This document shows, piece by piece, positions 1-17,154 of a stretch of 17,154 nucleotides of DNA. The position numbers and the translations under genes are program-made. Positions within the stretch are counted from its first letter, which is position 1; the number at the start of each line of letters is the position of its first letter. The stretch covers positions 1-17,154 of the forward strand of contig JAOAGA010000036.1 in NCBI GenBank assembly GCA_026415985.1, in the 5' to 3' direction. The notes under the pieces are model-generated. The model searched no databases. It was not told the origin of the DNA and saw nothing but the letters and a program-made list of their open reading frames with translations. Origin of the DNA: Pseudomonadota bacterium (GTDB lineage: Bacteria; CALINM01).

Positions 1-33
1 CATTTCTCGCTTATTCTCTGCGATTTAGGTGGA

Positions 34-347
34 GGTTTCAGCCCCTGATATCAGGGATGGGTACGGAAACATTATATGAGGGAGATGGGACAGCGAAGCT
101 GGGTTTCAGCCCCTGATATCAGGGATGGGTACGGAAACCGTTATGATCTATACATAAATTTAAAAAAAGACAGGTTTCAGCCCCTGATATCAGGGATGGG
201 TACGGAAACCTTCCCACCCACTACCACTACATCTTTAAACGTCAGGTTTCAGCCCCTGATATCAGGGATGGGTACGGAAACACAAGAGGGGGGCGCATGC
301 ACGGGGAAAAGGTTTCAGCCCCTGATATCAGGGATGGGTACGGAAAC
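34..347 (-). CRISPR. CRISPR array, five identical repeats, incomplete at left edge
   Basis: Five identical repeats lie at 34-70, 102-138, 173-209, 245-281 and 311-347. Each is 36 bp (GTTTCAG...GGAAAC) preceded by an invariant G, so the unit may be 37 bp. The spacers between them are 31, 34, 35 and 29 bp and differ from one another. Bases 1-33 are spacer-length, so the array very likely continues left of the window. The repeat core CCCTGATATCAGGG is a perfect 14-bp palindrome, and the ends GTTTC/GAAAC are also complementary. Read on the minus strand the repeat ends in CTGAAAC(C), close to the ATTGAAAC-type 3' end common in repeats of type I-B and III systems. The flank at 348-482 is AT-rich and could be the leader. 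I therefore infer leftward transcription with the newest spacer at 282-310. No cas gene is in view, so the type is open. Confidence 0.96.
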
Positions 348-482
348 TCTATGATATATAATTTATTGATTTAACTCAACAAAAATTGGCGTTTTCCGGG
401 ATGATCCGACTATCAACATTTTATCAACAGGTTTTCCACATACATTTCCCCGCAAGGTCCACCATTTTACATTAAAAGAGCA
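348..482. other. Non-coding gap: putative CRISPR leader with DnaA-box cluster
   Basis: These 135 bp separate the last CRISPR repeat from the stop codon of cooS. No ORF with a ribosome binding site is visible. The part next to the array (348-390) is very AT-rich and could be a CRISPR leader, or an unwinding element if the DnaA boxes at 410-440 are real. No convincing hairpin plus T-run was found for termination of the cooS operon, so cooS transcripts may read into the array, which appears to be transcribed in the same direction. Confidence 0.5.
410..440 (+). promoter_or_regulatory. Three DnaA-box-like 9-mers at 11-bp spacing
   Basis: CTATCAACA (410-418), TTATCAACA (421-429) and TTTTCCACA (432-440) are direct repeats, each starting exactly 11 bp after the previous one. 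TTTTCCACA fits the relaxed DnaA box TTWTNCACA. TTATCAACA differs from the canonical TTATCCACA at one position, and CTATCAACA at two. Near-helical spacing on one strand is the arrangement expected for cooperative DnaA loading. An AT-rich stretch lies immediately to the left. Binding is inferred, not shown; the DnaA encoded in this window has a canonical DNA-binding signature. Confidence 0.5.
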
Positions 483-2357
483 TCAGGAGGCTAAGCCTAA
501 AGCCTTTCTTTTATTCTTTATATGCTCTATTATTAAATCTCCCGCCTTTAAAGGATCGGGCTCTACAGCAAACTTCGCACCAAAAACGCCTTCTAAGCCA
601 TTCACCGCAAGATCGGTTATCTTTTTGCTTCCAAGTATAGGTGGCATAACTCCTAAAACTGTATAGATACCACTTGCCATTACATAAAAGGCTATTGCAA
701 CTGCCTTTTCAGAATACCATTCCGGTGCGGATCCTGCAAGAGGCAAATCTGAAATATCAACGCCTAAAGCATTAGCAAGGGCACTTGCTATTACAAGTAT
801 CCTCGAGTTATCAACACAGGACCCGATATGAAGTGATGGTGGTATTCCGAGGGCGTTACATACCGCTTTTAAGCCTTCTCCCGCAAATACTTTCCCTTCG
901 GGAACCTGAAGACCTGCCTTTCCTATGGCTACGTTTGCACAACCTGTTGTTAAGACAAGTATATCGTTGGCAACAAGCTTTTTTGCAAGCTCTACATGAC
1001 CATAGTCATGTTTTATCTTAGGGTTGTTGCATCCAACAATACCAACAGCTCCTTTTATGTTTCCCGCTTTTATGGCATCTATTAACGGATTTAGTGTGCC
1101 ACCAAGGGCTTTTAGTATAGCCTCTACCGAGAAGCCAGTCATACTTTTTACTTCAGTTACAGGGATATAGACCTTTTCCTTTTTTCTGTTCTTAAAGTTT
1201 TCTACTGCAAGCTTAACAATTTTAAAGGCCCTTTCTCTGGCGTTTTCAGGATTAAACTCAATGTGTTCCATGCCGGGGAATTTTGCCTTGTCAGATGTTG
1301 AAAACATCAGGGTATGATAGCATTTTGCCACCTCAGATAGTGCAGGCATTATACACTGATAATCTACAACCATTGCCTCAACAGCACCTGTTACAATGGT
1401 AAGCTCTGTCATAAGATGGTTGCCCGCCATAGGAATACCTTTTCTCATAAGGAGCTCATTGCCGGTGCAACAAAGACCCGCTAAGTTAATCCCCTTGGCA
1501 CCTAAAGATTTTGCTAAATCGGTTAGTTCCTTATCTTCAACTGCTAAATAAATCATCTCAGAAACAACAGGGTTGTGTCCATGAATAAGTATGTTTACGT
1601 AATCTTCCTTTATTACGCCTAAGTTTAGAGCAGATACCTTTGGCTCAGGTGTGCCAAAGAGTATATCGGAAACATAAGTTCCTATCATTGAGCCACCATA
1701 ACCATCGGCAAGGCTTGTGCGAACACCTTGTAAAAGCAAGGATATATAATCATTATCTACGCCCATATGGGATCTGTGCATTGACTCGGTTACTTCTCTG
1801 TCTATACCGCGAGGTATTACGTTTAACTTTCGCCATAGCTCTTTTCTTTTTTCCGGCGCGATTGAGACGAAACTTATCTCTTTCTTTTTCATGCCATAGT
1901 CTTCCATCATCGCCAAGGCAAGCTCTTTTGCTATCTCTTTAGTTGTTTTTCCATCAACTGTTATATTATAAATCTTTGCTATGGTTTTGAGTTTCTCCTC
2001 ATCTTTTATCTCGTATCCCCCCGCCTTACCCTCACCAACTGCATATAATACCTCAACCAAATCTCTGCCATGATCAGAGTGAGAGGCAGAGCCTGCTGAA
2101 ATCATTCTGAGAAGGTTTCTTGCAACCATTATCTCTGCATCGGCACCACAAACGCCTTTCTGAGGACCATCCCCAAAGGGGTCAATCCTGCAGGGACCCA
2201 TTGTGCAGATCCTGCATGATAAGCCCAACTCGCAGAACCCGCAATGGGGCTCCTGGGCAATTTTTCTATCCCAGACAAGCTCTATGTTTTCTCTCTCTGC
2301 CTTTTTTATTGTCTCTGTGGCATCGGTACAGATGGATAACTCTTTATAGTCTTTCAT
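483..2357 (-). CDS. cooS: Anaerobic Ni-Fe carbon monoxide dehydrogenase, catalytic subunit
   Basis: This enzyme oxidises CO with water to CO2, two electrons and two protons at a Ni-Fe-S C-cluster; it is a cytoplasmic homodimer. The 624-residue length is normal for the family. Residues matching the C-cluster ligands are present: His261 (HGHNP), Cys297 (CCTG), Cys335, Cys443 (GCNNP), Cys473 (TGC) and Cys514 (GSCVDNSR), with the catalytic Lys551 (SEKA). Cys48, Cys51, Cys56 and Cys70 would bind the B-cluster. The intersubunit D-cluster motif is Cys39-x2-Cys42 with Ser at 47, not Cys-x7-Cys, so a [2Fe-2S] D-cluster of the Desulfovibrio kind is likely. His93 and His96 of the proton-relay helix are kept, but 99 and 102 are Asp and Glu. 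The start has an AAGGAGG site and lies 4 bp after the ferredoxin gene, its probable electron acceptor. No acetyl-CoA synthase, CooC or hydrogenase genes are in view. Confidence 0.97.
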   Translation of the reverse strand: MKDYKELSICTDATETIKKAERENIELVWDRKIAQEPHCGFCELGLSCRICTMGPCRIDPFGDGPQKGVCGADAEIMVARNLLRMISAGSASHSDHGRDLVEVLYAVGEGKAGGYEIKDEEKLKTIAKIYNITVDGKTTKEIAKELALAMMEDYGMKKKEISFVSIAPEKRKELWRKLNVIPRGIDREVTESMHRSHMGVDNDYISLLLQGVRTSLADGYGGSMIGTYVSDILFGTPEPKVSALNLGVIKEDYVNILIHGHNPVVSEMIYLAVEDKELTDLAKSLGAKGINLAGLCCTGNELLMRKGIPMAGNHLMTELTIVTGAVEAMVVDYQCIMPALSEVAKCYHTLMFSTSDKAKFPGMEHIEFNPENARERAFKIVKLAVENFKNRKKEKVYIPVTEVKSMTGFSVEAILKALGGTLNPLIDAIKAGNIKGAVGIVGCNNPKIKHDYGHVELAKKLVANDILVLTTGCANVAIGKAGLQVPEGKVFAGEGLKAVCNALGIPPSLHIGSCVDNSRILVIASALANALGVDISDLPLAGSAPEWYSEKAVAIAFYVMASGIYTVLGVMPPILGSKKITDLAVNGLEGVFGAKFAVEPDPLKAGDLIIEHIKNKRKALGLAS

Positions 2358-2361
2358 ATTG

Positions 2362-2958
2362 CTACCTCCTTGATATTTCTAATAATGATTTATTATAAGC
2401 TTTCAATAGATTGTAACCATTTATGTTTTCCTCTCTTTTCTCACGAATACCTAAATACACAAGCTCTGCTATCTTTCTTCCTTCAACATTGGTCATGTAC
2501 TTGTTTATGTCATCATAAACCAATGCAGAAACCTTGCAGGCCGAGACACAAGCTGGTTTTTCTCCTTCGGTGAGTCTTAATATGCACTGATCACACTTAT
2601 GGGCTGATAGCTTCCTGTGAGGATATAAGTGATATCTTATAACCCCAAAGGGGCAAGCCATAGCGCACATGCCACAGTTTATGCATTTGTCGGGGTTTAT
2701 TAAAACAATCTCGTCATTATTGGCTCTGTAAATGGCTTTTGTAATACAGGACTGCTCACAGGGAGCGGGATTACAATGCCTGCATTTATTGGGAAAAGGC
2801 TCTTTATCTTTTGTTTTTACTATATGAATTCTTGGTTTTGATGGTATCTCTTCAAAAACAGAAAAGTAATCCTTTGACTTAGAATGGGCCAAGGCACATT
2901 GAAATCTGCATTGCATACAGCCAACACATCTTTCAGGATTTATAATTACCGTTTTCAT
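2362..2958 (-). CDS. cooF: CooF-like ferredoxin with four [4Fe-4S] clusters
   Basis: This is an electron-transfer protein of the CooF/HycB/DmsB type. Its 198 residues contain sixteen cysteines in four groups: 11/14/17/21, 59/62/67/71, 92/95/98/102 and 122/125/137/141. The last group has the long Cys-x11-Cys gap typical of this family, and together they bind four [4Fe-4S] clusters. It has no signal peptide or membrane segment, so it should be cytoplasmic. The ATG is preceded by AAGGAGG. It lies between the flavoprotein gene (14-bp gap) and cooS (4-bp gap), which makes it the natural carrier of electrons from the CO dehydrogenase to the flavoprotein. The family also serves other oxidoreductases, so the CO-specific role rests on this context. 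Confidence 0.94.
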   Translation of the reverse strand: MKTVIINPERCVGCMQCRFQCALAHSKSKDYFSVFEEIPSKPRIHIVKTKDKEPFPNKCRHCNPAPCEQSCITKAIYRANNDEIVLINPDKCINCGMCAMACPFGVIRYHLYPHRKLSAHKCDQCILRLTEGEKPACVSACKVSALVYDDINKYMTNVEGRKIAELVYLGIREKREENINGYNLLKAYNKSLLEISRR

Positions 2959-2972
2959 GATAGATAACCTCC

Positions 2973-4172
2973 TTAAATTTTATAATAGGAGACTGGTGTT
3001 GTGGTTAAAAACTCTTCTGGATTTGAAATCCGGGTATCTCCTTTTTTGATGAGATTAACATAAACTCCTGCATCTTCAGGATTGTTCAAAAAAGCCACAC
3101 CAACGAGAAGATCATCTTTAAGGGCAATTTTCCTGAACTGGTTTTTATTTTTGTGCCAGAGAGTATGAGTCTTTATACCATCTCCCTTTAACAGGCCCGC
3201 GGTTATGAGATGGAAATTTTCCATTTTAAGGCTATTCATTGAGATTGAACCGGGATAGGAAACATCTCTTCCCAAGATATTTAGTGCACAAAAGTATCCC
3301 TGCTCCTCTGCAACAGGCCAGATTGCGTTAATATACCGCTCTTTTCTTATAATATCAAAGCTTTCTGCACAATCACCTATGGCAAAAATATCTTTATCGG
3401 AAGTTTGTAGATACTCGTTAACCAAAATCCCGTTTTCACAATCAAGACCGGCATTTTTGGCAAGTTTGATGTTTGGCTTAACTCCTTTGCCAACAATCAC
3501 TGCATCGCAATGTATCTCTGTCTCGTCTCTGAGGGTAACTTTTGCAAGGCCCTCTTTTTTTGAGATATCTATAACATCAGATTTAAGTTTTAAATCTATC
3601 TTCATTTTTATGAGCTCTTTTTCAACAACTCTTCCTGTCTCTTCATCGGCAGTTACCGATAGAGGGTAAGGTGATGTTACAACCATTGTGGTGTAAACCT
3701 TTCTCTTATAAAACCCATAGGCAGATTTAATACCTACATAACCGCCACCTACAACTACAACAGAATTTTTCAATCTCTTTTCTATTTTTACAGCCTCTCT
3801 TAAGTATCTTAATGTAAAAACATTGTTCTCTTCTTTCGTATAGGTTGGACGCAAAGGATCCGCTCCTACTGCTAAAATCAGCTTGTCATAGGAAATTTCT
3901 TTTCCGTCTTCTAATACTATTGTTTTTTTCTCCCTCTTTATCTCTGTAACATTTTTGCCTGTGATGAGATTTATCTGCCTGAAATCATTAATATCCGCTA
4001 TATTTATATCTTTCTCACCAAGCTCCCTGCCAAGGAGATAGGTTAAAAGACATCTCGAATATATTCTGTCTTCATTTGTAATCGCTGTGATATTTATATC
4101 TTTTGAATATTTTAACAGGGTTTTTAAACAGGAAAGCCCCCCTGCACTGAGACCAACTATGACAATATTCAT
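2973..4172 (-). CDS. FAD/NAD(P)-dependent oxidoreductase of the CO dehydrogenase operon
   Basis: A 399-residue flavoprotein of the pyridine nucleotide-disulfide oxidoreductase superfamily (NADH oxidase/rubredoxin reductase-like). An N-terminal Rossmann motif GLSAGG (residues 7-12) binds FAD. A second, GGGYVG (142-147), binds NAD(P)H. AIGDCAE (264-270) is the second FAD contact. Cys41 (YSRC) sits near the place of the redox cysteine of NADH oxidases, but the local context differs and a catalytic role is unproven. Similar genes accompany cooS and cooF in several clostridia and Geobacter, where the flavoprotein is thought to pass electrons from CO to NAD(P)+; I infer that role here. It leads the operon. 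No Shine-Dalgarno precedes the ATG; a TTGACA/TAAATA promoter ends 6 nt upstream, so the mRNA may be leaderless. Confidence 0.88.
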   Translation of the reverse strand: MNIVIVGLSAGGLSCLKTLLKYSKDINITAITNEDRIYSRCLLTYLLGRELGEKDINIADINDFRQINLITGKNVTEIKREKKTIVLEDGKEISYDKLILAVGADPLRPTYTKEENNVFTLRYLREAVKIEKRLKNSVVVVGGGYVGIKSAYGFYKRKVYTTMVVTSPYPLSVTADEETGRVVEKELIKMKIDLKLKSDVIDISKKEGLAKVTLRDETEIHCDAVIVGKGVKPNIKLAKNAGLDCENGILVNEYLQTSDKDIFAIGDCAESFDIIRKERYINAIWPVAEEQGYFCALNILGRDVSYPGSISMNSLKMENFHLITAGLLKGDGIKTHTLWHKNKNQFRKIALKDDLLVGVAFLNNPEDAGVYVNLIKKGDTRISNPEEFLTTTPVSYYKI

Positions 4173-4178
4173 AATTTC

Positions 4179-4206
4179 TATTTAACATATTTTAAAATTT
4201 TGTCAA
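4179..4206 (-). promoter_or_regulatory. Promoter of the CO dehydrogenase operon
   Basis: On the minus strand a perfect -35 TTGACA (plus-strand TGTCAA, 4201-4206) is followed after 16 bp by TAAATA (4179-4184). Only 6 nt then separate it from the ATG at 4172. Transcription would begin at about the first base of the start codon, which fits the absence of a Shine-Dalgarno sequence. No obvious operator or CooA-type palindrome was recognised beside it. Confidence 0.55.
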
Positions 4207-4265
4207 GATGGCAATTACTGTCCAATTTTATTAATAATGTTCGGATAAAAAATTTTCCCCAAAAC

Positions 4266-4294
4266 TTGACTTTTACTACCATGCCTTATATATT
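4266..4294 (+). promoter_or_regulatory. Promoter of the small secreted protein gene
   Basis: TTGACT (4266-4271) and TATATT (4289-4294) are separated by 17 bp, an optimal sigma-70-type arrangement. Transcription should start near 4301, giving a leader of about 60 nt that contains one arm of the inverted repeat (4322-4333) and the ribosome binding site. A further TATAAT at 4301-4306 has no matching -35. The promoter diverges from that of the CO dehydrogenase operon. Confidence 0.55.
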
Positions 4295-4321
4295 TTCTCT
4301 TATAATACAAAATTTTAACTA

Positions 4322-4333
4322 TAGACGAAGCGA
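4322..4333 (+). repeat. Left arm of 12-bp inverted repeat framing the secreted protein gene
   Basis: TAGACGAAGCGA at 4322-4333 is the exact reverse complement of TCGCTTCGTCTA at 4807-4818; allowing a few mismatches, similarity extends a few bases on each side. The arm lies between the promoter and the ribosome binding site of the secreted protein gene. It is GC-richer than the surrounding AT-rich DNA. Confidence 0.7.
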
Positions 4334-4361
4334 TTATAATGTTTAAAAAGGAGGGAAAGTA

Positions 4362-4772
4362 ATGAAAAACTTACAAATTAAAACACTTTTTTTTATCGTT
4401 ACAATAATCTTAATGTCAATTACCGCTACCATTGTTTTTTCCCAGGAAAAGCATAGATCTCCTTCGCATATTATTGTATACAAAGGAGAAACCGCTGGAA
4501 CTGGCCCAGGAATTGGAGTACTAAAAATGAATATTGGGGAAGAAATTACAGTTACAGCGGCTGGTTTTGATTCGGAAGGAAAAGAAGTTCCTATATGGCC
4601 CACTTGGAAAGCAGACAAAGAACTTTCTATTCGCGTGGTTGAAGGTAAGAGTAAGTCTGCAGTTATAAAAGCACTAAAAGAGGGACCTTCTTTCTTTGAA
4701 GCAATATATATTACTGAAGAAGGAAAGAAGATTTCAGGTGGAGGAGCTGTGGAAATAAAAGCAAAAAGATGA
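4362..4772 (+). CDS. Small secreted protein, possible Ig-like fold, function unknown
   Basis: A 136-residue protein that I do not recognise. Residues 1-27 form a signal peptide: a lysine near the start, a long hydrophobic stretch, and probable cleavage around the Ser-Gln at 27-28. The mature part of about 110 residues has no cysteine and no membrane segment. Its pattern (GEEITVTAAGFDSEGKEV, then PTWKAD, an alternating segment and a glycine-rich end) resembles a single bacterial Ig-like (Big_2-type) beta-sandwich; this is a guess from pattern only. The start is supported by AAGGAGGG at 4348-4355. A seven-codon ORF (4339-4362) overlaps the ATG as TAATG. The gene has its own promoter and is framed by the inverted repeat at 4322-4333 and 4807-4818. 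The long ORF on the opposite strand is its shadow, since the signal peptide, binding site and promoter all favour this strand. Confidence 0.85.
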   Translation: MKNLQIKTLFFIVTIILMSITATIVFSQEKHRSPSHIIVYKGETAGTGPGIGVLKMNIGEEITVTAAGFDSEGKEVPIWPTWKADKELSIRVVEGKSKSAVIKALKEGPSFFEAIYITEEGKKISGGGAVEIKAKR

Positions 4773-4806
4773 ACCATCTATAAACCACAACATTTGTTAT
4801 TCATAT

Positions 4807-4818
4807 TCGCTTCGTCTA
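4807..4818 (-). repeat. Right arm of 12-bp inverted repeat framing the secreted protein gene
   Basis: TCGCTTCGTCTA lies 34 nt after the stop codon of the secreted protein gene and 70 bp before the trmFO start. It matches the left arm at 4322-4333 perfectly in inverted orientation, with outer ends 497 bp apart. It is not followed by a local hairpin or T-run, so it is not an ordinary intrinsic terminator. The short direct repeat ATTTTA occurs outside both arms (4312-4317 and 4820-4825), but in such AT-rich DNA this may be chance. Confidence 0.7.
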
Positions 4819-4872
4819 CATTTTATTCTCTTTGATTTTATTTACGAAAAAATTTTTGTATACCTCTTAATA

Positions 4873-4881
4873 TGATAAAAT
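4873..4881 (+). promoter_or_regulatory. Extended -10 promoter of trmFO
   Basis: TGATAAAAT (TGn plus TAAAAT) is an extended -10 element ending 6 nt before the trmFO ATG at 4888. The -35 region is weak, as is usual with extended -10 promoters. No Shine-Dalgarno sequence lies between it and the ATG, so transcription probably starts at or next to the start codon. Confidence 0.45.
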
Positions 4882-4887
4882 ATTTCC

Positions 4888-6201
4888 ATGAAGATTGCTG
4901 TAATCGGTGCGGGGCTTGCAGGTTGTGAGGCTGTTAATCTTTTGATAAAAAACAATTTTTCCGTAGATCTCTTTGAGATGAAGCCTAAAAAGCTCTCTCC
5001 CGCCCACAAACTGCCAACCTTTGCCGAGCTTGTTTGTAGTAACTCCCTCAAAACTACAAGAGATACCCATCCTCAAGGGATGTTGAAATACGAGTTGCTT
5101 AAATTAAACTCAGTTATTCTATCAAAAGCCCAATTAGCAAAAGTTCCTTCAGGTGATGCCTTAGCTGTTGACAGGGTTCTTCTTTCAAAACTTGTTACAG
5201 ATGAAATTATGAAGATGAAAAATTTAAGGATTATAAACAAAGAGGTGGAAGAACTGCCTCAAGGTTATGACTATTACATAATAGCAACAGGTCCGCTTAC
5301 TTCTGAAAGCCTTTCAGAATATTTAGCCTCTGAGTTACTTGGCTCGGAAAGTCTTTATTTTTATGATGCCATTGCACCAATCATTGACGCTGAAAGTATT
5401 GATATGAGTAGGACCTTCTTTGGCTCCCGATATGATAAAGGAGGAGATGATTATCTTAATATCCCCCTAACTAAGGAGGAGTATTTGAAATTTATTGATG
5501 CTCTAAGATCTGCTGAGAAGGTCCCTTTAAGAAGCTTTGAAAAACCGAGGTATTATGAAGGGTGTCTGCCTGTTGAAGTTCTTGCGGAAAGGGGGATTGA
5601 TACCCTTGCCTATGGACCTATGAAACCCGTTGGTTTTGATGAAAGAAAGATTGGCTTTAAGCCCTATGCCGTTGTTCAGTTAAGAAGAGAAGATAAAGAG
5701 GGGACCGCTTACAACTTAGTTGGGTTTCAGACAAAATTAACCATAAAGGAACAGGAGCGCATTTTCAGAAGCTTACGGGGGCTTGAGAGGGCAGTTTTTC
5801 TGAGATATGGGTCGATACACAGAAATACCTTCATTGATGCGCCTAAACATCTTAATATAACCTTAAACCTTAAAGGAAGAGAAAACATATACTTTGCAGG
5901 GCAGATTACAGGGGTTGAAGGATATGTAGAATCTATTGCGACCGGCTTATTATCCGCCCTTTTTCTAATTTTCAGGATAAAAAATATAAGCCCTGTAATA
6001 CCGTCAGCAAGAACCGCCCTGGGTGCACTTCTTTCTCATACTCAAAGGGAGATAACGCCATATCAGCCATCGGGTTTACATCTTGGCCTGTTTTTAAAAG
6101 AAGATGTTCCTAAAAAACTTAAAGAAGAGCGGATATTGGAAAACGAAAGGAAGGATTTTGATATATTTTCAGAGGAGATAAAAAATTTTATTTCTTTCTG
6201 A
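4888..6201 (+). CDS. trmFO: tRNA uracil-54 C5-methyltransferase, folate/FAD-dependent
   Basis: This enzyme makes ribothymidine at position 54 of the tRNA T-loop, using 5,10-methylenetetrahydrofolate as carbon donor and FAD/NAD(P)H for reduction. The 437-residue length is normal. The N-terminal GAGLAG (residues 7-12) is the FAD Rossmann motif. The family segment FAELVCSNSLK carries Cys50, and YYEGCLPVEVLAERG carries Cys226; these match the two functional cysteines Cys53 and Cys226 known from Bacillus TrmFO. The C-terminal GQITGVEGYVESIATG (339-354) is the second flavin-binding block. The start is set by homology, because there is no Shine-Dalgarno site and the ATG follows an extended -10 by 6 nt. 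Its 3' end overlaps by 14 bp the convergent 90-residue gene. It stands alone on the plus strand between two minus-strand operons. Confidence 0.96.
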   Translation: MKIAVIGAGLAGCEAVNLLIKNNFSVDLFEMKPKKLSPAHKLPTFAELVCSNSLKTTRDTHPQGMLKYELLKLNSVILSKAQLAKVPSGDALAVDRVLLSKLVTDEIMKMKNLRIINKEVEELPQGYDYYIIATGPLTSESLSEYLASELLGSESLYFYDAIAPIIDAESIDMSRTFFGSRYDKGGDDYLNIPLTKEEYLKFIDALRSAEKVPLRSFEKPRYYEGCLPVEVLAERGIDTLAYGPMKPVGFDERKIGFKPYAVVQLRREDKEGTAYNLVGFQTKLTIKEQERIFRSLRGLERAVFLRYGSIHRNTFIDAPKHLNITLNLKGRENIYFAGQITGVEGYVESIATGLLSALFLIFRIKNISPVIPSARTALGALLSHTQREITPYQPSGLHLGLFLKEDVPKKLKEERILENERKDFDIFSEEIKNFISF

Positions 6202-6460
6202 TAATTCTTTCTAACTCAACAAGTTGCTGTAAGATAATGTTTTTTTTGTTTGTCAGTGAAAGCCATTTTTTTTCATCAAACCTATCAAAGGCTTCTTTTA
6301 TTTCTCTGTTAAGAATTTCTATGTAGGAAGAAAGGGAGTTATAGACCTTTATTAATTCTTCATGAACCTCTTTTAGTTCCTCCTCTGTTTTATCCTTTTC
6401 TTCGTTTATAAACTTTTCTATATCATCGAGATCTTCTTTTTTTTCTATATCGTCATTCAT
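6188..6460 (-). CDS. Small acidic coiled-coil protein, function unknown
   Basis: A 90-residue, highly charged protein without recognisable homology. The N-terminal third is strongly acidic (many Asp/Glu with Lys). From about residue 22 to the end, heptad-like hydrophobic spacing suggests one long helix or helical hairpin. There is no signal peptide, membrane segment or cysteine. The ATG lies inside the end of the Lon-like protease gene (8-bp overlap), so translation is probably coupled to it. It ends the replication operon and runs 14 bp into the oppositely directed trmFO. The coupling suggests a partner or adaptor of the protease, but this is inference. The reading frame is open over its whole length and matches the operon's organisation, so I take it as real. 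Confidence 0.7.
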   Translation of the reverse strand: MNDDIEKKEDLDDIEKFINEEKDKTEEELKEVHEELIKVYNSLSSYIEILNREIKEAFDRFDEKKWLSLTNKKNIILQQLVELERIIRKK

Positions 6461-8852
6461 CTTTCTTTTTCTCCTTCGGCTTTTTGCCTTCTTCTTTGCC
6501 CTTTTCCTTTAACTCCAAAAGTGCTTTTTCAACATAATAATTTACCGAATTCTCTTCAAATCTCCCTGTTTGAGGATCATACGCCCCTGATTTTAAACCC
6601 GTTAATAACTCCAATGCCTCTTCGACATTTTCTACCGCATATATATGAAAAAGTCCTTTTTCTACGGCGGAGCAGACTTCCTCATTAAGCATAAGATGCT
6701 GAACATTTGATTTGGGTATTATTACGCCTGTTTCCTTTTCTTTGAATCCTCTCTCTTTCACTACCTCAAAAAAACCTTCTATCTTCTCATTGACGCCACC
6801 GATTGGCTGAACCTCTCCATACTGATTTATGGAGCCCGTAACGGATATACATTGTTTTATCGGAATATTGCCTATGGCAGAATGAAGAACCACCGCTTCT
6901 GCAACAGAGGCACTGTCTCCTTCAATCATTCCGTATAGCTGTTCAAAACAAATATTTGCACTAAAACTAAGAGAGCCTTTCTTTCCAAACTTATTATTAA
7001 AATAGGAAGAAATAATCATTGACGCCTTGTCATGTATCTTTCCGCTTAATTTTGCTTCTCTGTCAATATGAACTACTCCTCCTTTACCCGTTGAAACAGT
7101 TGCGGTTATCCGGGAGGGTCTTCCGAATCTGTAATCACCCAAGTCATAGACAGAAAGTCCGTTAATCACACCAACCCTGCTTCCTTCTGTAGAGACCAGA
7201 AGGACATCTCTCATAAATTGTTCCTGTATTTTTCTTTCTATCTTGTTGTGTCTTTCCCTTTTTTTGTTAAGGGCGGTAACCACATCCTCTCTCGTAACTA
7301 TATCCTTTCCGGATTTTTTTGCAAAAAAGCAGGCCTCTCTGACAAGTTCGGCTATGTCATCTATTCTTATAGATAATCTTTTCTGATCATCGATTAATCT
7401 TCCACCATACTCAATAACTCTCTGTATGGCACTATCATCAAAGGGGAGCAGTCCTTCTTTTTCAACAAGATGATTTATATAAAAGGCATAGGAAGACTCT
7501 CCCTTTTCATCCCACAAAATATCTCTTTCAAAATCGACCTTAACCTTAAAAATTTTTGAAAACTCCTCATCGTAATTATAGAGAATATAGTAAATAAAGG
7601 GGTTACCTATTATTGTTATCTTTATATCAAGAGGAATCGGCTCAGGTTTTAGCGTTCCAGAGGACATCCTGTAGGGCTCCATTGGATCTTCAATTCTGAT
7701 TTCCTTGTTTTTGATCGCCCTTTTTAATATGTCATAGGAAAAGGGGTTTTTAAATACATCAAGGGCATCAAGTATCAAATATCCGCCATTGGCCTTGTGA
7801 AGGGCACCAGATTTTATCAGTGTAAAATCGGTAAGTGCCATACCCATCTGAAAGCGATACTCAATCTTGCCTATGAGGTTAAAGGCGTTTGGATTGGTCT
7901 CAAAAACTACCGGTGTCCCCTCTTCACCGCTTCTGTCAATTAATACATTAACCTTATATTTAACAAAAGAAGGCTCAGGCTTAAAAAACCTCAGAGCCAT
8001 ATTGGCAGGAACAGGCAGTTCCGCCTGTTTGAAGTCTTCTAAGTTGTTTAATATATCCTCCTGAACATTAGAAAGATACTCTATGATTTTTGGGTTAAAG
8101 CCAAACCTCTCTTTTAGATCATCTATATGATAAGCAACATTGTTAAAGGCAACCTTTTTTTCTAACTCCAAAAGCTTTCTGCGCGTTTCTTTTTCTGCCT
8201 CTTTTACAACCTTTATCGCCTCTTTTAGCCTGTTTTGTAGGACCTTTATTTTTTCCTGAATGGCCTTTTTTTCAACCTCAGATAATCTGGAAAACTTTTC
8301 ATCGTCGAGAACCTCGTTGTCTTTTACAGGAAGAAACATGAAGCCTTCTGCACCTTTTTCCAGTACAAAGCCTCTCCCTCTTGCCTCATCATTAAGTGAT
8401 TCAAATATCTGCCGATCAAACTCCTGAAACCTCTCTATCAGCTGAGTTCTTTCCTGTTCAAACTCCTTTGACTCAAAAACTTTAGGAATCTCTTTACGGA
8501 GAGATTCAATAAGCTCATCCATCTCTTTCGAAAACAAAGCACCATAACCTTTGGGGAAATTGAGATATATTGGGCTGTCGGGCTCTTTAAAGTTATATAC
8601 ATAAACAAAATCTTCCGGTTCTTTTTCCGACAGAGCCTTTTGTTTTGTAATCTCCAAGATGAGATGATGTTTGCCAAGACCGGGCTCTCCTAAGGCAAAG
8701 ATGTTATAGCCATCTGATTTAATATCAAGCCCAAACTCAATGGCTTCTATTGCAGATTTCTGTATATCAAAAAAACCTTCCTTCTTTATCTGACCGTTTT
8801 TTGAAGAATAGGTGCTGGTTTTTTTTATCTGAGTTGTTGTAAGCTTTTCCAA
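6453..8852 (-). CDS. Lon-like AAA+ ATP-dependent protease (AAA_32/LonB type)
   Basis: A 799-residue protein combining an AAA+ ATPase with a C-terminal Lon serine protease domain. The Walker A motif is GEPGLGKH (55-62), with His where Ser/Thr is usual. A charged coiled-coil insertion spans about 110-235. The Walker B motif is in GGYLILDALD (356-365). The Lon domain (about 560-755) has the Ser-Lys dyad: Ser647 in EGDSAS and Lys690 in GGVNEKIEG. The tail after 780 is Lys/Glu-rich. It lacks the N-terminal domain of classical LonA and has no membrane segments like archaeal LonB, so it should be cytoplasmic. The start is TTG with GGAG 6 nt before it, 9 bp after the gyrB stop. The place behind gyrB suggests co-expression with replication genes. 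Substrates are unknown. Confidence 0.93.
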   Translation of the reverse strand: MEKLTTTQIKKTSTYSSKNGQIKKEGFFDIQKSAIEAIEFGLDIKSDGYNIFALGEPGLGKHHLILEITKQKALSEKEPEDFVYVYNFKEPDSPIYLNFPKGYGALFSKEMDELIESLRKEIPKVFESKEFEQERTQLIERFQEFDRQIFESLNDEARGRGFVLEKGAEGFMFLPVKDNEVLDDEKFSRLSEVEKKAIQEKIKVLQNRLKEAIKVVKEAEKETRRKLLELEKKVAFNNVAYHIDDLKERFGFNPKIIEYLSNVQEDILNNLEDFKQAELPVPANMALRFFKPEPSFVKYKVNVLIDRSGEEGTPVVFETNPNAFNLIGKIEYRFQMGMALTDFTLIKSGALHKANGGYLILDALDVFKNPFSYDILKRAIKNKEIRIEDPMEPYRMSSGTLKPEPIPLDIKITIIGNPFIYYILYNYDEEFSKIFKVKVDFERDILWDEKGESSYAFYINHLVEKEGLLPFDDSAIQRVIEYGGRLIDDQKRLSIRIDDIAELVREACFFAKKSGKDIVTREDVVTALNKKRERHNKIERKIQEQFMRDVLLVSTEGSRVGVINGLSVYDLGDYRFGRPSRITATVSTGKGGVVHIDREAKLSGKIHDKASMIISSYFNNKFGKKGSLSFSANICFEQLYGMIEGDSASVAEAVVLHSAIGNIPIKQCISVTGSINQYGEVQPIGGVNEKIEGFFEVVKERGFKEKETGVIIPKSNVQHLMLNEEVCSAVEKGLFHIYAVENVEEALELLTGLKSGAYDPQTGRFEENSVNYYVEKALLELKEKGKEEGKKPKEKKKDE

Positions 8853-8861
8853 TGTTTTCTC

Positions 8862-12190
<3,329 letters not shown>

Positions 12191-13273
12191 CTAAATCTTT
12201 ATTGGCATTACAACCGCTTTATAGTTTTCATCACCTGATATAAGAACTGCCTTGTTGGAATCTTTTATGGACATCTCTATCTTATCAGCCTCTGCTTTTG
12301 ATATTGCTTCTATCAGATACTGTGCGTTAAAACCAATATCTATGCTTTCGCCGTCATAGATATGATCTATCTCATCCTCACCTTCTCCCAACTCTACATT
12401 GACACCTTTTATGGAAATAATATCCTGTTTAATTGAGAACATAACACCTTTTGTGCTCTCTTCTGCTATTACAAGTAGTCTCTCCAGACTCTCCAGTATC
12501 TTACTCTTGTCTATATATGATTTGAAAGGGTTGTTTAGAGGTAAAACCTCAACATAATTGGGAAACTTAACTTCTCTTAACCTTGTAATGAAGGTTGTTC
12601 CATCAGATTCAAAACTGGCGTAATTGTCTTCAATAGATATGTCTAAGTTATCTGTTTCCTCTGTTGAAAATATCTTTATTATCTCAGAAGTTCCCTTTTT
12701 GGAAATTAATATATTCTCTATCTCTTTTTCAAAGGGAAGTTCATAATAGCACAGCCTGAAGGAGTCGGATGTTACAAACCTTAGTTTTTCATTAATTTTG
12801 TGAATGTAAACACCGTTAAGACTAAGTCTTGACTCATCGGGGTAAATGGCATACTCAACTTTATTCAGTGCTTTTATAAAGTCTGCCCTTTTGAGGGTTA
12901 TCTTTTTGTCTGTCGATGGTTTTTTTATTGCGGGAAAGTCTTCAGGGGATTGTGAGAATAGTTTGAAAGAGGATTTTCCTGATTTTATAAGAATGTTTTT
13001 TTCTTCCTGTGATATGGTTATGGACTCTCCTGAAAGGCTTTTGATTATTTCAAAGAATTTCTTTGATGGAATACATATAGATCCTGTATTTTCAATTGTT
13101 CCATAAGAGGTTGATATAATGGAGTTATCCAGGTTAGTAGCCTTGATTGTTATCTTGTCTTTAGCTTCAAGTAAAATATTATTAAGAATGGGCATAGTGG
13201 TTCTTTTTTCGGATATTCCCTGTACCTTTTTAAGTGATTTCAGTATTTCCTCTTTCTTTACTATTACTTTCAT
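12191..13273 (-). CDS. dnaN: DNA polymerase III beta sliding clamp
   Basis: The ring-shaped processivity clamp, a dimer encircling DNA that tethers polymerase III and repair proteins. Its 360 residues match the family's three repeated clamp domains. The start is typical (MKVIVKKEEILKSLKKVQ, then RTTMPILNNILLEA), and so is the end (AVVMPIKI, like the usual VVMPMRL), which forms part of the client-binding pocket. The ATG has an AAGGAG site about 8 nt upstream. It is separated from dnaA by 149 bp of AT-rich DNA but abuts recF, so dnaN-recF-gyrB-lon may have a separate promoter in that gap; I could not place one with confidence. Confidence 0.97.
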   Translation of the reverse strand: MKVIVKKEEILKSLKKVQGISEKRTTMPILNNILLEAKDKITIKATNLDNSIISTSYGTIENTGSICIPSKKFFEIIKSLSGESITISQEEKNILIKSGKSSFKLFSQSPEDFPAIKKPSTDKKITLKRADFIKALNKVEYAIYPDESRLSLNGVYIHKINEKLRFVTSDSFRLCYYELPFEKEIENILISKKGTSEIIKIFSTEETDNLDISIEDNYASFESDGTTFITRLREVKFPNYVEVLPLNNPFKSYIDKSKILESLERLLVIAEESTKGVMFSIKQDIISIKGVNVELGEGEDEIDHIYDGESIDIGFNAQYLIEAISKAEADKIEMSIKDSNKAVLISGDENYKAVVMPIKI

Positions 13274-13422
13274 CTTTTACTCCTTATTTAGTAGATATTA
13301 GTAGTCTATGTTAATTTGTTGATTACTTAATATAACTTGCTGTTTTTAAATAAAAAAACAATGTTTATAAATTGTTTACAAAAAAAATGTTATTAACATG
13401 TAAGTATAGTTTAAAGTTTTTA
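13274..13422. other. AT-rich dnaA-dnaN gap with weak DnaA-box-like sites, candidate oriC element
   Basis: No gene is visible in these 149 bp. Near-matches to the DnaA box occur on the minus strand as TAATCAACA (13317-13325) and TTATAAACA (13362-13370) and on the plus strand as TTATTAACA (13390-13398). The last lies within the inverted repeat ATGTTA-T-TAACAT. TAGTAG-ATAT-TAGTAG at 13289-13304 resembles the DnaA-trio elements known from Bacillus origins. In many bacteria the dnaA-dnaN gap is part of oriC. DNA this AT-rich gives such matches by chance, so the assignment is tentative. Confidence 0.35.
13356..13377 (-). terminator. Weak AT-only hairpin with T-run after dnaA
   Basis: AAACAAT (13356-13362) pairs with ATTGTTT (13371-13377) around an 8-nt loop. 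In the dnaA direction the stem is followed by a run of T. The stem has only one G/C pair, so strong termination is doubtful. It could instead be a protein-binding inverted repeat, and it overlaps one of the DnaA-box-like sites. Confidence 0.2.
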
Positions 13423-14715
13423 TCAATATTTTTTCAACAGGTTTTCAATGTATTCAACCTGTTTTTTAAAGCTTTCGTCTTCTTCTATTTTTTTAGAAAC
13501 TTTGTTAATGGAATGTATCACTGTTGAGTGATCTTTACCTCCGAATTTGTTGCCGATCTCGTTGAGAGACAGCTCGGTATATTTTCTGCTAAGGTATATG
13601 GCGATATGTCTTGCTATAGAAATTTTTTTAAGTTTTTTTTGAGATTTAATATCAGAGATCTTTAACTGAAAACAGTCACAGGTAGCCTTTTGTATTGATT
13701 CCACTGTAATGACATGGTTTTCCTTTGGCAGGTGATCTGCCAGTATCTCCTTGGTTAAGTTAAGATTTAGTTTTTTCTTTGTAAGGGAGGAGTATGCAAG
13801 GAGTTTGGTGAGAGCGCCTTCCATCTCTCTGATATTTTTATTGATGTTAGTCGCAATAAAATGAATAATTTCATCAGGGAGGGTTACATTATGATAGGCA
13901 GTCTTGCTCTTTATGATTGCGACCCTTGTTTCGTATTCCGGTGGCTGAATATCCACTACCAGTCCCCATTCAAATCTGTTTCTTAACCTGTCGTCTATAT
14001 TTTGTATTAGTTTCGGATATTTATCGCTCGTTATAACTATTTGTTTTTTCTTCTCGTAGAGGTTATTGAAAATAGTAAAAAACTCTTCCTGATTAGCTTC
14101 TTTACCTGCTATGAACTGAACATCGTCAAGAAGAAGAATATCAACATTTTTAAACCTTTCCCTAAACTCATTCATCCGCTGGAATCTTATGGCACTTATG
14201 AAATCATTTACAAATTTCTGTGAAGGACAGTAAAGAATATTTATACCTTCATATTTCTGATAAACCGCATGACCTATAGCCATTATCAGATGGGTTTTTC
14301 CCAACCCCACATTACTATAGATTAGTAAGGGGTTGTATTGATTGCCAAGATTATTAACGACCGCATTTGATGCTGCGTGGGCAAACTCATTGGAGGGACC
14401 GGTTATAAAGTTTTCAAAGGTATATCGGGATATTAAAGAGGGGTGTAATTTTTTCTCACCGGGTTCTTTAATATTAGATTTTTCTGTAGATACAATAACT
14501 TTTACAGGCTTTTCCAATAAGGAAGAAAAAATACCCTCTATTGTTGTAAGATAGTTTTCATTAATCCAGTCTCTGAAAAAATCATTTGGTGTCGATAACT
14601 TTATGGTATCTTCCTCATAGGAGAGAATGCCCATTGGTTCAATCCATATATCAAATGTTGAGGAATCGAAAAAGTTTTTTGATTGTTCAAGGAATTTTTT
14701 CCAGAGTTCAATCAT
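13423..14715 (-). CDS. dnaA: Chromosomal replication initiator DnaA
   Basis: DnaA binds DnaA boxes, oligomerises with ATP and melts the origin. I chose the ATG at 14715 (430 residues) because MIELWKKFLEQ matches the family N-terminus and a promoter-like pair (TTGAAT-17-TAAATT) ends 8 nt before it. The same frame is open to an ATG at 14745 (10 more residues), which would lie inside that promoter. Neither start has a Shine-Dalgarno. Domain I is followed by a very short linker. The AAA+ domain has Walker A SNVGLGKT (134-141; first Gly replaced by Ser), Walker B ILLLDDVQF (193-201), sensor 1 ITSD, an arginine-finger region DDRLRNRFEWG and sensor 2 NIREMEGAL. Domain IV contains the DNA-binding signature GGKDHSTVIHSINK (392-405), so boxes near TTATCCACA are expected. 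Confidence 0.96.
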   Translation of the reverse strand: MIELWKKFLEQSKNFFDSSTFDIWIEPMGILSYEEDTIKLSTPNDFFRDWINENYLTTIEGIFSSLLEKPVKVIVSTEKSNIKEPGEKKLHPSLISRYTFENFITGPSNEFAHAASNAVVNNLGNQYNPLLIYSNVGLGKTHLIMAIGHAVYQKYEGINILYCPSQKFVNDFISAIRFQRMNEFRERFKNVDILLLDDVQFIAGKEANQEEFFTIFNNLYEKKKQIVITSDKYPKLIQNIDDRLRNRFEWGLVVDIQPPEYETRVAIIKSKTAYHNVTLPDEIIHFIATNINKNIREMEGALTKLLAYSSLTKKKLNLNLTKEILADHLPKENHVITVESIQKATCDCFQLKISDIKSQKKLKKISIARHIAIYLSRKYTELSLNEIGNKFGGKDHSTVIHSINKVSKKIEEDESFKKQVEYIENLLKKY

Positions 14716-14723
14716 AGATAAAC

Positions 14724-14752
14724 AATTTATCAAATTAAAAATCATAATTCAA
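14724..14752 (-). promoter_or_regulatory. Probable dnaA promoter, leaderless
   Basis: On the minus strand TTGAAT (14747-14752) and TAAATT (14724-14729) are 17 bp apart, and the -10 is preceded by TGA, forming an extended -10. The -10 ends 8 nt before the ATG at 14715, so transcription would start at or just before it. This supports the shorter DnaA and explains the missing Shine-Dalgarno. Confidence 0.45.
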
Positions 14753-14850
14753 GTAAACTAATTTATGTCTAAGGGGGTAGAAGAATTAATATTCTGGTTG
14801 TATAACTTGTTGATAATACTAAATAATATGGCATAAAGATAGAGCCCTGT

Positions 14851-14878
14851 TTGACTTATGAAAATAGGTTGTTAGAAT
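14851..14878 (+). promoter_or_regulatory. Promoter of the V/A-type ATPase operon
   Basis: TTGACT (14851-14856) is followed after 16 bp by TAGAAT (14873-14878). The first gene starts at 14898, preceded by AGGAGG at 14886-14891. The predicted leader would therefore be only about 12-14 nt and just include the ribosome binding site. No better hexamer pair was seen in the gap. Confidence 0.45.
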
Positions 14879-14897
14879 TTCTATTAGGAGGATTATT

Positions 14898-15200
14898 ATG
14901 AGTATATTAAAGGAGCTGTTGGCTGAAGAAGAAAGGATAAGGAAGCTCTTGGAAGAAGAGAAAAGAAACATAAAGGAGTATTTGGATAATAAAAGAGAGG
15001 AGCTTAATCTGAAACTTAGGACATACGAGGAAGAGCTTATCAGAAATATTGGTATAAATGCAGAAAAGACCGAAAAGGACTACAGAGATCTTTTAGAAAA
15101 AAAGTTAGAAAACTACAGGTTGATGATCCAATATTTCAAAGAGATGGAAGAAAACGCCCTTTTTGAGATGGCATTTAAATACTACAGGTCAATTCTTTAA
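14898..15200 (+). CDS. V/A-type ATPase stalk-like coiled-coil subunit (G/H family)
   Basis: A 100-residue protein, nearly all helical and highly charged, with continuous heptad-like spacing from residue 1 to about 85 and no membrane segment. In V/A-ATPase operons such a protein directly before subunit I is the peripheral-stalk subunit (G/H; AhaH or NtpF in named systems) that pairs with subunit E to hold the catalytic head. Sequence alone does not prove this, since coiled coils are poorly conserved, and the call rests mainly on gene order. It has a strong AGGAGG site 6 nt before the ATG and ends 2 bp before subunit I. It is the first gene of the operon. Confidence 0.78.
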   Translation: MSILKELLAEEERIRKLLEEEKRNIKEYLDNKREELNLKLRTYEEELIRNIGINAEKTEKDYRDLLEKKLENYRLMIQYFKEMEENALFEMAFKYYRSIL

Positions 15201-15202
15201 TT

Positions 15203-17056
15203 ATGATTGTTCCGTTTTCAAAAATTCAGATAATCGGATCTTTATACAGTTTAGACAGGGTAATTAATTTTTTGAAAGAAGAAAAGGTAATACATCCCGA
15301 AAAAGAGATAGAAAATTTTTGTGGTGATCTAAAGGATTTATTAAAAAACTACAACAGAACTGAAGAAACAATAAGAGAAAGAATTTATTTGGAAAGCCTT
15401 AAGAAAAAACTGGAAGAGTTTTTCGAAATAACAAAGGGCACAGAGATAGATACACGTGAAGAAAAAGAACAAGTGGAAGTAAATATTACCATCGAAGAGG
15501 CAGAAAAGGATATAAAGCTATTCAAAGGTCTTCTAAAAAAATTTGATGAAGTTAAAAGAAAAAACGAAGAACTGGAACTCTACCGGAGTTTTCTTAGTCT
15601 GGCAGAAGAATCTAACTTATTGGAAGTAAGTTCGTTGGAAATTACTGGACTATTACTTAGAAATGAAGAATCAGCTGAAAGGTTAAGGAAGATACTGGAA
15701 GAAAAAGGAGAGGGGCTCTTAAAGCTAATTATAAAAACTGATGAAAAAAACAATGTTATTGGTTTGATTGTATATCCAAAAGACTCTAAGGAGAGCTTAA
15801 GAAAATATTTAAGAGATTTAAACATACCAGAAATGGTAACCCCCCCGCAGTTAAAATCATTAAGCTTTGAGGAAAAAATAAGGTCAATAGAAGAAGAGCT
15901 ATCGAAACTATCCGGGCAATATTTTCTGTTAAAAAGGGAAATAGAGGATAATATTTCTGAAAGATACGGACTTTATAAAGAAAATCACAGAGCTGTTCTG
16001 CAGAAACTAAAAGAAATAGAAGAAAGAGTTTATCTGTACAAATCGGAAAAACTTTTTTTCATCTTTGGATGGATACCGAAGGATAGAGTAGAAGAGTTAA
16101 AGGAAAAGCTGAAGAAAAGATTTAATGACATGGTGCTCTTGGAAGAGCTTGAAATAGTTGAAAAAGAAAAGAACAGCATACCTGTTATAATGAAAAACTC
16201 AGCCTATTTTAAGCCTTTCGAGATATTTACAAAAGTTTTTCCTCTTCCGACCTATGGGTCTTACGATCCAACTGTTTTCTTGGGCATCTTTTTTCCTGTT
16301 TTTTTTGGAGTTATCGTTGGTGATATAGGATATGGTCTGATAATATTACTAATTTCGAAGATTGGCTCAAGATTGTTTAAAAACAATTTTCTACAGGATC
16401 TCTCAAGGGTAATCTTTTATGGCGGGTTAAGTGCCCTTTTGTTTGGTTTTGTTTATGGTGAGATGTTTGGTGAGTTTGGCAGGGAGATAGAGGTCATAAA
16501 AGCAATAAAAATTTTAGACAGAGGACACTCCATAACACAGATGTTTTTTATCTCTATTTTTATTGGAGTTGCTCACGTTATATTAGGATTTCTGTTAAGC
16601 TTTATACGTCCTGCGGAAAAAAAGGAGAGATTGGTTTCGTTATTGTTGATATTTTGTATAGTGATGTTGATTAGTATTACCTATCTTTTGTTTACCGGTG
16701 AAGATCAAAAAATACTTTATTTAATGATGATTGCCCTTTCCTTAATAATAGTGCTTTCCGTTATTTTTTACGGAATAATATTTCCCGTTGAGCTTGTTAA
16801 AACCATTGGTAATATAGTCTCTTATGGCAGGATAATGGCAATAGGTCTATCATCGGTTATTCTTGCAAATATTGCCAATAGTTTTTTAGGATCCGTTGGA
16901 AACATTTTTGTAGGATTTCTTGTAGCTTTGTTCATTCATCTGATAAATATTGTCCTGTCAATTTTTTCACCAACTATTCACTCTCTTAGATTACATTATG
17001 TCGAGTTTTTTTCAAAGTTTATGAAGTTTGGCGGGAAAAAATTTAGTCCCTTATAA
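15203..17056 (+). CDS. V/A-type ATPase membrane subunit I (a-subunit homologue)
   Basis: The large stator subunit that couples ion flow to rotor turning. Its 617 residues have the expected two-part layout: a soluble, coiled-coil-rich N-terminal half (1-340) that binds the peripheral stalks, then a membrane half (about 350-590) with several hydrophobic segments. Family motifs are FFGVIVGDIGYG (367-378), SYGRIMAIGLS (540-550) with the essential ion-channel Arg543, and the C-terminal LRLHYVEFFSKF. The ATG is 2 bp after the preceding stop with only a weak ACAGG site, so coupling is likely. The proteolipid gene follows 14 bp downstream. Whether the pump moves H+ or Na+, and whether it makes or uses ATP, cannot be told here. 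Confidence 0.96.
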   Translation: MIVPFSKIQIIGSLYSLDRVINFLKEEKVIHPEKEIENFCGDLKDLLKNYNRTEETIRERIYLESLKKKLEEFFEITKGTEIDTREEKEQVEVNITIEEAEKDIKLFKGLLKKFDEVKRKNEELELYRSFLSLAEESNLLEVSSLEITGLLLRNEESAERLRKILEEKGEGLLKLIIKTDEKNNVIGLIVYPKDSKESLRKYLRDLNIPEMVTPPQLKSLSFEEKIRSIEEELSKLSGQYFLLKREIEDNISERYGLYKENHRAVLQKLKEIEERVYLYKSEKLFFIFGWIPKDRVEELKEKLKKRFNDMVLLEELEIVEKEKNSIPVIMKNSAYFKPFEIFTKVFPLPTYGSYDPTVFLGIFFPVFFGVIVGDIGYGLIILLISKIGSRLFKNNFLQDLSRVIFYGGLSALLFGFVYGEMFGEFGREIEVIKAIKILDRGHSITQMFFISIFIGVAHVILGFLLSFIRPAEKKERLVSLLLIFCIVMLISITYLLFTGEDQKILYLMMIALSLIIVLSVIFYGIIFPVELVKTIGNIVSYGRIMAIGLSSVILANIANSFLGSVGNIFVGFLVALFIHLINIVLSIFSPTIHSLRLHYVEFFSKFMKFGGKKFSPL

Positions 17057-17070
17057 AGGAGGAATACCTT

Positions 17071-17154
17071 ATGGAAACAAAAGTTTTGTTAGCCTTTGCG
17101 TCTGCTCTTGCTGTGGGGTTGTGTGGTATTGCTACTGCCTGGGCACAATCAAAG
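17071..17154 (+). CDS. V/A-type ATPase proteolipid subunit K (partial)
   Basis: The first 28 codons are present and the gene runs off the right edge. METKVLLAFASALAVGLCG followed by IATAWAQSK is the first transmembrane helix of a c-ring proteolipid, ending in the AQSK turn typical of subunit K. AAAGGAGG at 17055-17062 overlaps the subunit I stop and lies 8 nt before the ATG. The ion-binding glutamate and the number of hairpins lie beyond the window. Order after subunit I agrees with bacterial and archaeal V/A-ATPase operons. Confidence 0.88.
   Translation, partial: METKVLLAFASALAVGLCGIATAWAQSK

Follow-up and report, generated by a model that had tools for sequence, protein, structure and literature searches.

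In type I-E CRISPR (clustered regularly interspaced short palindromic repeats) systems, the leader carries a site for the integration host factor (IHF), which bends it for spacer integration, and to our knowledge the host factors of adaptation described so far belong mostly to type I. DnaA boxes, for their part, form titration or regulatory clusters such as datA and DARS. Here we examine three DnaA-box-like repeats at positions 410 to 440 of a 17,154-nucleotide stretch of DNA from a Pseudomonadota bacterium (the window throughout this text; GenBank assembly GCA_026415985.1, contig JAOAGA010000036.1, positions 1 to 17,154 of the forward strand), which lie in the leader of a CRISPR array whose repeat is shared with a locus encoding a fusion of Cas6, reverse transcriptase (RT) and Cas1. 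Our preferred explanation, to which we assign a probability of about 0.55, is that these tandem boxes are a host-factor site at which DnaA would shape the leader for spacer integration, with a possible further effect on the array promoter. For a Cas6-RT-Cas1-Cas2 system studied in vitro, the authors suggest host factors for full-site integration of RNA and single-stranded DNA (PMC8102632, Nat Commun 2021). In Escherichia coli, Cas1-Cas2 foci need active replication, and at 42 °C recO dnaA46 cells lose their bright foci (PMC13244154); such foci make a link to replication plausible for adaptation generally and say nothing on DnaA at leaders.

Phased repeats in a CRISPR leader

The three 9-mers start at 410, 421 and 432, all on the plus strand and exactly 11 bp apart from start to start, as the first-pass annotation had described them. 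The AT-rich neighbour that it reported adjoins them at 348 to 385, and the additional copy of TTATCAACA that it placed upstream of dnaA is present there, on the minus strand. The elements of the locus are as follows.

410 to 418, plus strand: box 3, leader-proximal, CTATCAACA; TGTTGATAG in leader orientation, starting at -71/-72 from the first repeat
421 to 429, plus strand: box 2, TTATCAACA; TGTTGATAA in leader orientation, at about -82, 1 to 3 bp off the second box of other leaders
432 to 440, plus strand: box 1, distal, TTTTCCACA; TGTGGAAAA in leader orientation, at about -93, 1 to 3 bp off the first box of other leaders
348 to 448, minus strand: CRISPR leader, about 101 bp, differing by one base from the cas2-adjacent leader on contig C110 in an alignment of the two loci
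35 to 347, minus strand: CRISPR array, five repeats of GTTTCCGTACCCATCCCTGATATCAGGGGCTGAAAC, reading away from the leader and into the start of the contig
351 to 379, minus strand: candidate array promoter TTGAGT-17-TATCAT (9/12), with the boxes upstream of it; a consensus match only, 0.6 being expected by chance

Within the window, pairs of TTWTCMACA in 11-bp phase number five when up to two mismatches are allowed, against 0.04 expected, and none of 200 shuffles reaches five. Across the whole 1.57-Mb genome the 31-mer pattern, at up to three mismatches, matches only at 410 to 440 and at one exact twin on contig C110; phased triplets, which the first-pass annotation had said beforehand would speak against its proposal if they proved common genome-wide, are thus unique but for this twin. 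Mismatch-free phased pairs of TWTCMACA (TWTCMACANNNTWTCMACA) are likewise confined to the two sites, and a single mismatch adds five further ones, two of them in the 17-kb contig of the window, one inside recF and the other where dnaA ends. As a control, the same pair motif at a 10-bp step, with up to one mismatch, gave no match in this genome. The density of TTWTCMACA reaches 6.4 per 10 kb in the dnaA-bearing contig, about five-fold above the mean of 1.3 found over some 1.04 Mb of the 1.57-Mb genome (136 sites), which supports the motif as the DnaA box of this organism. With 9-mers that match the host box, in one orientation and in 11-bp phase, we read the repeats at 410 to 440 as tandem DnaA boxes, to which DnaA is predicted to bind.

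The twin on C110 lies between cas2 and an array whose repeat is identical to that of the window array. Next to the repeat, about 101 bp of the two leaders are identical except for one base, and the similarity ends just past the boxes, at 448, which makes the boxes the distal end of the CRISPR leader. Because the repeats on C110 and C91 are opposite in sense and the outer flanks of the leaders differ, these are two arrays rather than the two ends of one. The C110 operon encodes Cas10, several RAMP proteins, an 845-residue fusion that joins Cas6 (PF10040), RT (PF00078) and Cas1 (PF01867) in one protein, and Cas2 (PF09827); the best matches of its RAMP proteins are Csx10, Csx7 and TIGR03986, and the system is III-D-like by best hit, mostly under curated cut-offs. 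The leader thus has an array directly downstream, with the repeat of the array on the cas1/cas2 side (C91, C110), and belongs with a fusion gene that is accompanied by cas2 and by genes of type III. One copy of this repeat stands alone at the start of C110 (L003:42-77), upstream of the cas operon, and is probably the end of a further array. The genome also has a second, distant cas1 (L098, G000:C100:10632-11438), on a contig where no array of three or more repeats was found.

Leaders of related systems and the DnaA boxes of their hosts

No close relative of the RT-Cas1 protein was found in the sister genomes G001 and G002, and leader conservation was therefore tested through RT-Cas1 relatives elsewhere. 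An alignment of three Cas1 domains retrieved 44 loci, about 34 of them in the same Cas1 family, many from metagenome-assembled genomes (MAGs); plasmid and phage collections gave only distant Cas1 or RT matches, and when RT-Cas1 was sought in additional genomes of the Thermodesulfovibrio and Geobacter phyla, few leaders were gained. The statistics below refer to 25 leaders of related fusions, which are not fully independent, three coming from related Thermodesulfovibrio-type genomes. Several of these leaders have the same boxes on the same strand.

Geobacter leader: AACCCC-TGTGGATAA-CA-TGTGGATAA
Spirochaetales leader: AACCCC-TGTGGAWAA-GT-TGTGGATAA
Leader of Thermodesulfovibrio N1 and two relatives: AACCTA-TGTTGAAAA-GT-TGTTGAAAA
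Deferribacteraceae leader: AACCTA-CGTGGAAAA-CT-TGTGGAAAA
G088 leader: two boxes, 21 bp apart

Single or decayed forms of the box occur in other MAGs of Nitrospirota and Deltaproteobacteria. Altogether a TTWTCMACA box is present in 12 of the 25 leaders, against a shuffle mean of 0.47 (maximum 4 in 2,000 shuffled sets), and the exact 11-bp pair in six, from Geobacter, Thermodesulfovibrio-type genomes, Spirochaetales and this genome, with no such pair among 50,000 shuffled leaders. Arrays served by other Cas1 types, about 20 in all, showed no box in either flank (Fisher p 0.0003, the control box pattern being slightly wider). Counted from the first repeat, the boxes of the other leaders stand at about -92/-81 and those of the window leader at -93/-82/-71.

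Most leaders, with or without boxes, share an inverted repeat AACC...GGTT, the spacing being 38 bp in 16 of the arm pairs counted; within this interval one box begins at position 3 and the next at position 14, and in Brocadia, one of the 12 box-bearing leaders, the box lies outside it, near the repeat. The inverted repeat is probably the site of the integrase or of an accessory factor, and it is a second leader element of interest. Its arms, for example TTCAGAACC...GGTTCTGAA (L141-L170, L216, L217, L123; about -104 to -46), covary between lineages.

On a tree of the fusion proteins the exact-pair state requires five changes, at least three of which are forced by well-supported branches. On its long branch, the fusion of this genome falls in with the Thermodesulfovibrio clade (100/99); each of the four members of that group has boxes. 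Two side observations concern leaders further afield: weak leader-like DNA matches were seen in G002, G015, G037 and G131, and in gut bacteria (L021, L159; G095 and relatives) fusions some 595 residues long join Cas6 to Cas1 without the RT and are accompanied by a leader with one TTTTCAACA box.

Exact TTWTCMACA-NN-TTWTCMACA pairs were examined in 25 genomes, where they are confined to RT-Cas1 leaders, to positions beside dnaA or recF, and to positions upstream of dnaE- or uvrD-type genes (names read from translations, not from a profile search). Leaders with such pairs belong to this genome, Geobacter, N1, G216 (two), G369 (two) and Spirochaetales (three); the pairs beside dnaA are from Spirochaetales (two), and the one adjoining recF lies in a box array of bacterium HR15. 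When one mismatch is allowed, pairs also appear at dnaA in G000, G088, G149, G153, G155, G162, G216 and G369, and others elsewhere. In two gut genomes an exact pair precedes a uvrD/pcrA-type helicase gene (L244:1501-1520 in G159, L245:1501-1520 in G158), and in G157 a similar pair precedes dnaE (L228). The HR15 array (G161, L227:1440-1545) comprises about seven TTATCCACA-like boxes and is probably the oriC of that genome, where the DnaA of the window, used as query, recovered no dnaA at E 1e-3.

The pair in a leader tends to resemble the pair that flanks dnaA in the same host. The two are an identical 20-mer (20/20) in Spirochaetales; in G216 they read TTTTCAACAACTTTTCAACA and TTTTCAACAACTTTTTAACA, identical at 19 of 20 positions, and in this genome they agree at 17 of 20 and 25 of 31. 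In Thermodesulfovibrio N1 the contig stops within the region upstream of dnaA. In a test that included one Thermodesulfovibrio representative, 12 of 720 permutations reached the summed match of leaders to their own hosts. This resemblance is fair, not strong, evidence that the protein reading the leader is the host's DnaA.

The origin region of the contig

The first-pass annotation had raised the possibility of a displaced or second origin at the leader boxes and had called their distance of 13 to 14 kb from dnaA odd. The relevant features of the contig are these.

13423 to 14745, minus strand: dnaA (TIGR00362, E 2.5e-153), whose DNA-binding segment GGKDHSTVIH aligns with GGRDHTTVIH of a solved DnaA (8btg)
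13289 to 13305, plus strand: DnaA-trio-like run TAGTAGATATTAGTAGT beside dnaN, in the dnaA-dnaN gap; probable oriC unwinding element
13420 to 13450, plus strand: degenerate phased triplet TTATCAATA/TTTTCAACA/TTTTCAATG at the 3' end of dnaA, 25/31 identical to the leader 31-mer
11740 to 11759, plus strand: near-perfect phased pair TTATCAACA-TG-TTATAAACA, inside recF
14808 to 14816, minus strand: TTATCAACA upstream of dnaA

The DnaA itself is, by its sequence, ordinary, with a conserved DNA-binding segment. A BLAST search with the leader independently matched the 3' end of dnaA (92% over 26 bp); since 13420 to 13450 is also the coding end of the gene, this likeness may be partly codon-driven.

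The genes gyrB, recF, dnaN and dnaA lie on the minus strand and those to the right of dnaA on the plus strand, and the GC skew changes sign at about 12.5 to 14.5 kb, that is, at dnaA; neither skew nor adjacency marks 410 to 440 as oriC. Runs similar to TAGTAGATATTAGTAGT occur at the same place in the sister genomes G001 and G002, which are of the same family, and inspection by eye revealed no trio-like run around 410 to 440. GC skew, gene order and the conserved trio-like element thus place the probable oriC at dnaA-dnaN, at about 13.3 to 14.8 kb. As to distance, the boxes do lie near dnaA here, and this proximity is not general: in G216 the leaders are at 0.32 Mb and dnaA at 1.56 Mb, more than 1 Mb apart by coordinates or, should the contig be circular, about 0.7 Mb along the shorter arc. 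An origin at the leader boxes was accordingly rejected, on skew, trio-like elements, the sister genomes and the distance between leaders and dnaA in G216. Between the array and this region, positions 483 to 4172 encode an anaerobic CO dehydrogenase catalytic subunit (TIGR01702) and ferredoxin-like and NAD(P)H oxidoreductase-like proteins, next to the array and near oriC.

Possible roles of the leader boxes

If the boxes are a host-factor site, host DnaA molecules would assemble on them head to tail and cooperatively, about 60 to 95 bp upstream of the first repeat, and would act as an architectural or docking factor that presents or bends the leader for spacer integration by RT-Cas1-Cas2. DnaA would then sit between or beside other factors bound at the arms of the inverted repeat, which are 42 bp apart from centre to centre, or about four helical turns, and DnaA may in addition tune the array promoter. 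Both the occupancy by DnaA and its part in integration or transcription are proposed here from sequence comparison. The first-pass annotation had offered three roles for a DnaA filament site, and among them the DnaA-controlled leader is favoured by the duplicated leader and by a position kept across phyla, while the origin falls away and titration is disfavoured, since boxes fixed relative to the first repeat argue for a function of the leader.

Several observations weigh against the preferred explanation. In vitro, Cas6-RT-Cas1-Cas2 integrated double-stranded DNA where leader and repeat meet with no host factor added, in assays whose leaders measured 49 bp, or 163 bp for full sites (PMC8102632); by the box positions given above, a 49-bp leader would stop short of the boxes. 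No box is present in 13 of the 25 leaders, most of which nevertheless retain the inverted repeat, so the boxes cannot be a general requirement of RT-Cas1 systems; in these boxless relatives, about half, the DnaA-box element is optional or replaced. The match between leader and host, good in Spirochaetales, Thermodesulfovibrio-type genomes and this genome, is poor, at 14/20 each, in Geobacter, the Thermodesulfovibrionia MAG and Deferribacteraceae. Finally, AACC-38-GGTT, which is usual in relatives without being an established definition of a leader, has no comparable counterpart in the window leader, whose assignment is accordingly based on its position, its repeat and the cas genes.

The main rival on function keeps DnaA and drops integration: DnaA would bind the boxes purely as a regulator of the array promoter, tying production of CRISPR RNA to DnaA activity or cell-cycle state. 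Array transcription enters because of the weak sigma-70-like promoter just downstream of the boxes, which sit where the sites of upstream regulators often do, and the exact phased pairs upstream of dnaE and uvrD-type genes fit DnaA-regulated promoters. However, that promoter is a consensus match only, and boxes held in a fixed position relative to the repeat, within an inverted repeat of constant spacing, are more typical of an integration platform; we regard a purely regulatory role as rather unlikely. A different proposal removes DnaA altogether, making the phased repeat a site of the Cas6-RT-Cas1-Cas2 integrase or of another adaptation protein that has come to resemble DnaA boxes by convergence. 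Such a site would explain why the repeat occurs in leaders of one Cas1 family and is absent from about 20 other arrays, and the surrounding inverted repeat does look like that of an integrase or accessory factor. Yet the inverted repeat persists without the box, which about half of the leaders lack; the box is scattered over the RT-Cas1 tree, it varies where the boxes near the hosts' dnaA vary, with a likeness to the host above expectation, and identical exact pairs stand beside dnaA or recF in genomes of the set, all of which makes convergence improbable in our judgement.

We think it very improbable that the boxes adjoin the array by accident and serve in DnaA titration or as a displaced or second origin. 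Three phased boxes, an AT-rich neighbour, dnaA 13 kb away and the raised box density of the contig would suit such a reading; against this, the identical element recurs beside a second array, on a separate contig, the skew and the conserved trio-like runs place oriC at dnaA-dnaN with no such run flanking the boxes, and leaders and dnaA are far apart in G216. Nor do we give appreciable weight to a chance cluster in AT-rich DNA, or to two leader copies that are alike merely by recent duplication: 9-mers like TTATCAACA are fairly common in this 35% GC genome, but the phased 31-mer is unique apart from its leader twin, and the reappearance of phased boxes in distant phyla, at one and the same place in the leader, contradicts both.

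Under the preferred explanation, a host-factor site for DnaA, bacteria may use DnaA for writing or reading this type of immune memory. A bolder version, which we hold only tentatively and consider doubtful as a whole, makes DnaA the host factor for spacer integration in RT-containing CRISPR systems, so that memory writing, possibly from RNA, would be licensed by or tied to DnaA or the state of replication, and the boxes would be re-tuned to the DnaA box of each host after horizontal transfer. DnaA occurs in nearly all bacteria and could provide a molecular link between replication control and CRISPR memory. A literature search for DnaA together with CRISPR leaders or spacer acquisition found no link, although its coverage was incomplete and an earlier description is possible.

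Set beside known systems, the site shares with datA and DARS that it is a cluster of DnaA boxes outside oriC, and differs from them in having just two or three boxes at a position fixed to the CRISPR repeat. With phased oriC boxes, as at dnaA of Spirochaetales and recF of HR15, it has TTWTCMACA, direct orientation and 11-bp steps in common, whereas it lacks a trio-like unwinding element, adjoins a CRISPR array and exists as twin copies in the genome. The integration system of PMC8102632 has the same fusion architecture and integrates at the leader-repeat junction; no host factor is identified there, and the passages on the leader mention neither a DnaA box nor an inverted repeat. Which host factors permit integration of RNA-derived spacers was left open in that paper, and the tandem DnaA site supplies a named candidate. 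The likeness to the IHF site of type I-E leaders would lie in a site for a host DNA-binding protein, fixed relative to the first repeat and proposed to serve integration. In contrast to that site, the element here is a tandem DnaA box, stands farther upstream (about -60 to -95) and accompanies type III Cas6-RT-Cas1 fusions, in whose relatives the boxes lie inside an inverted repeat with 38-bp spacing.
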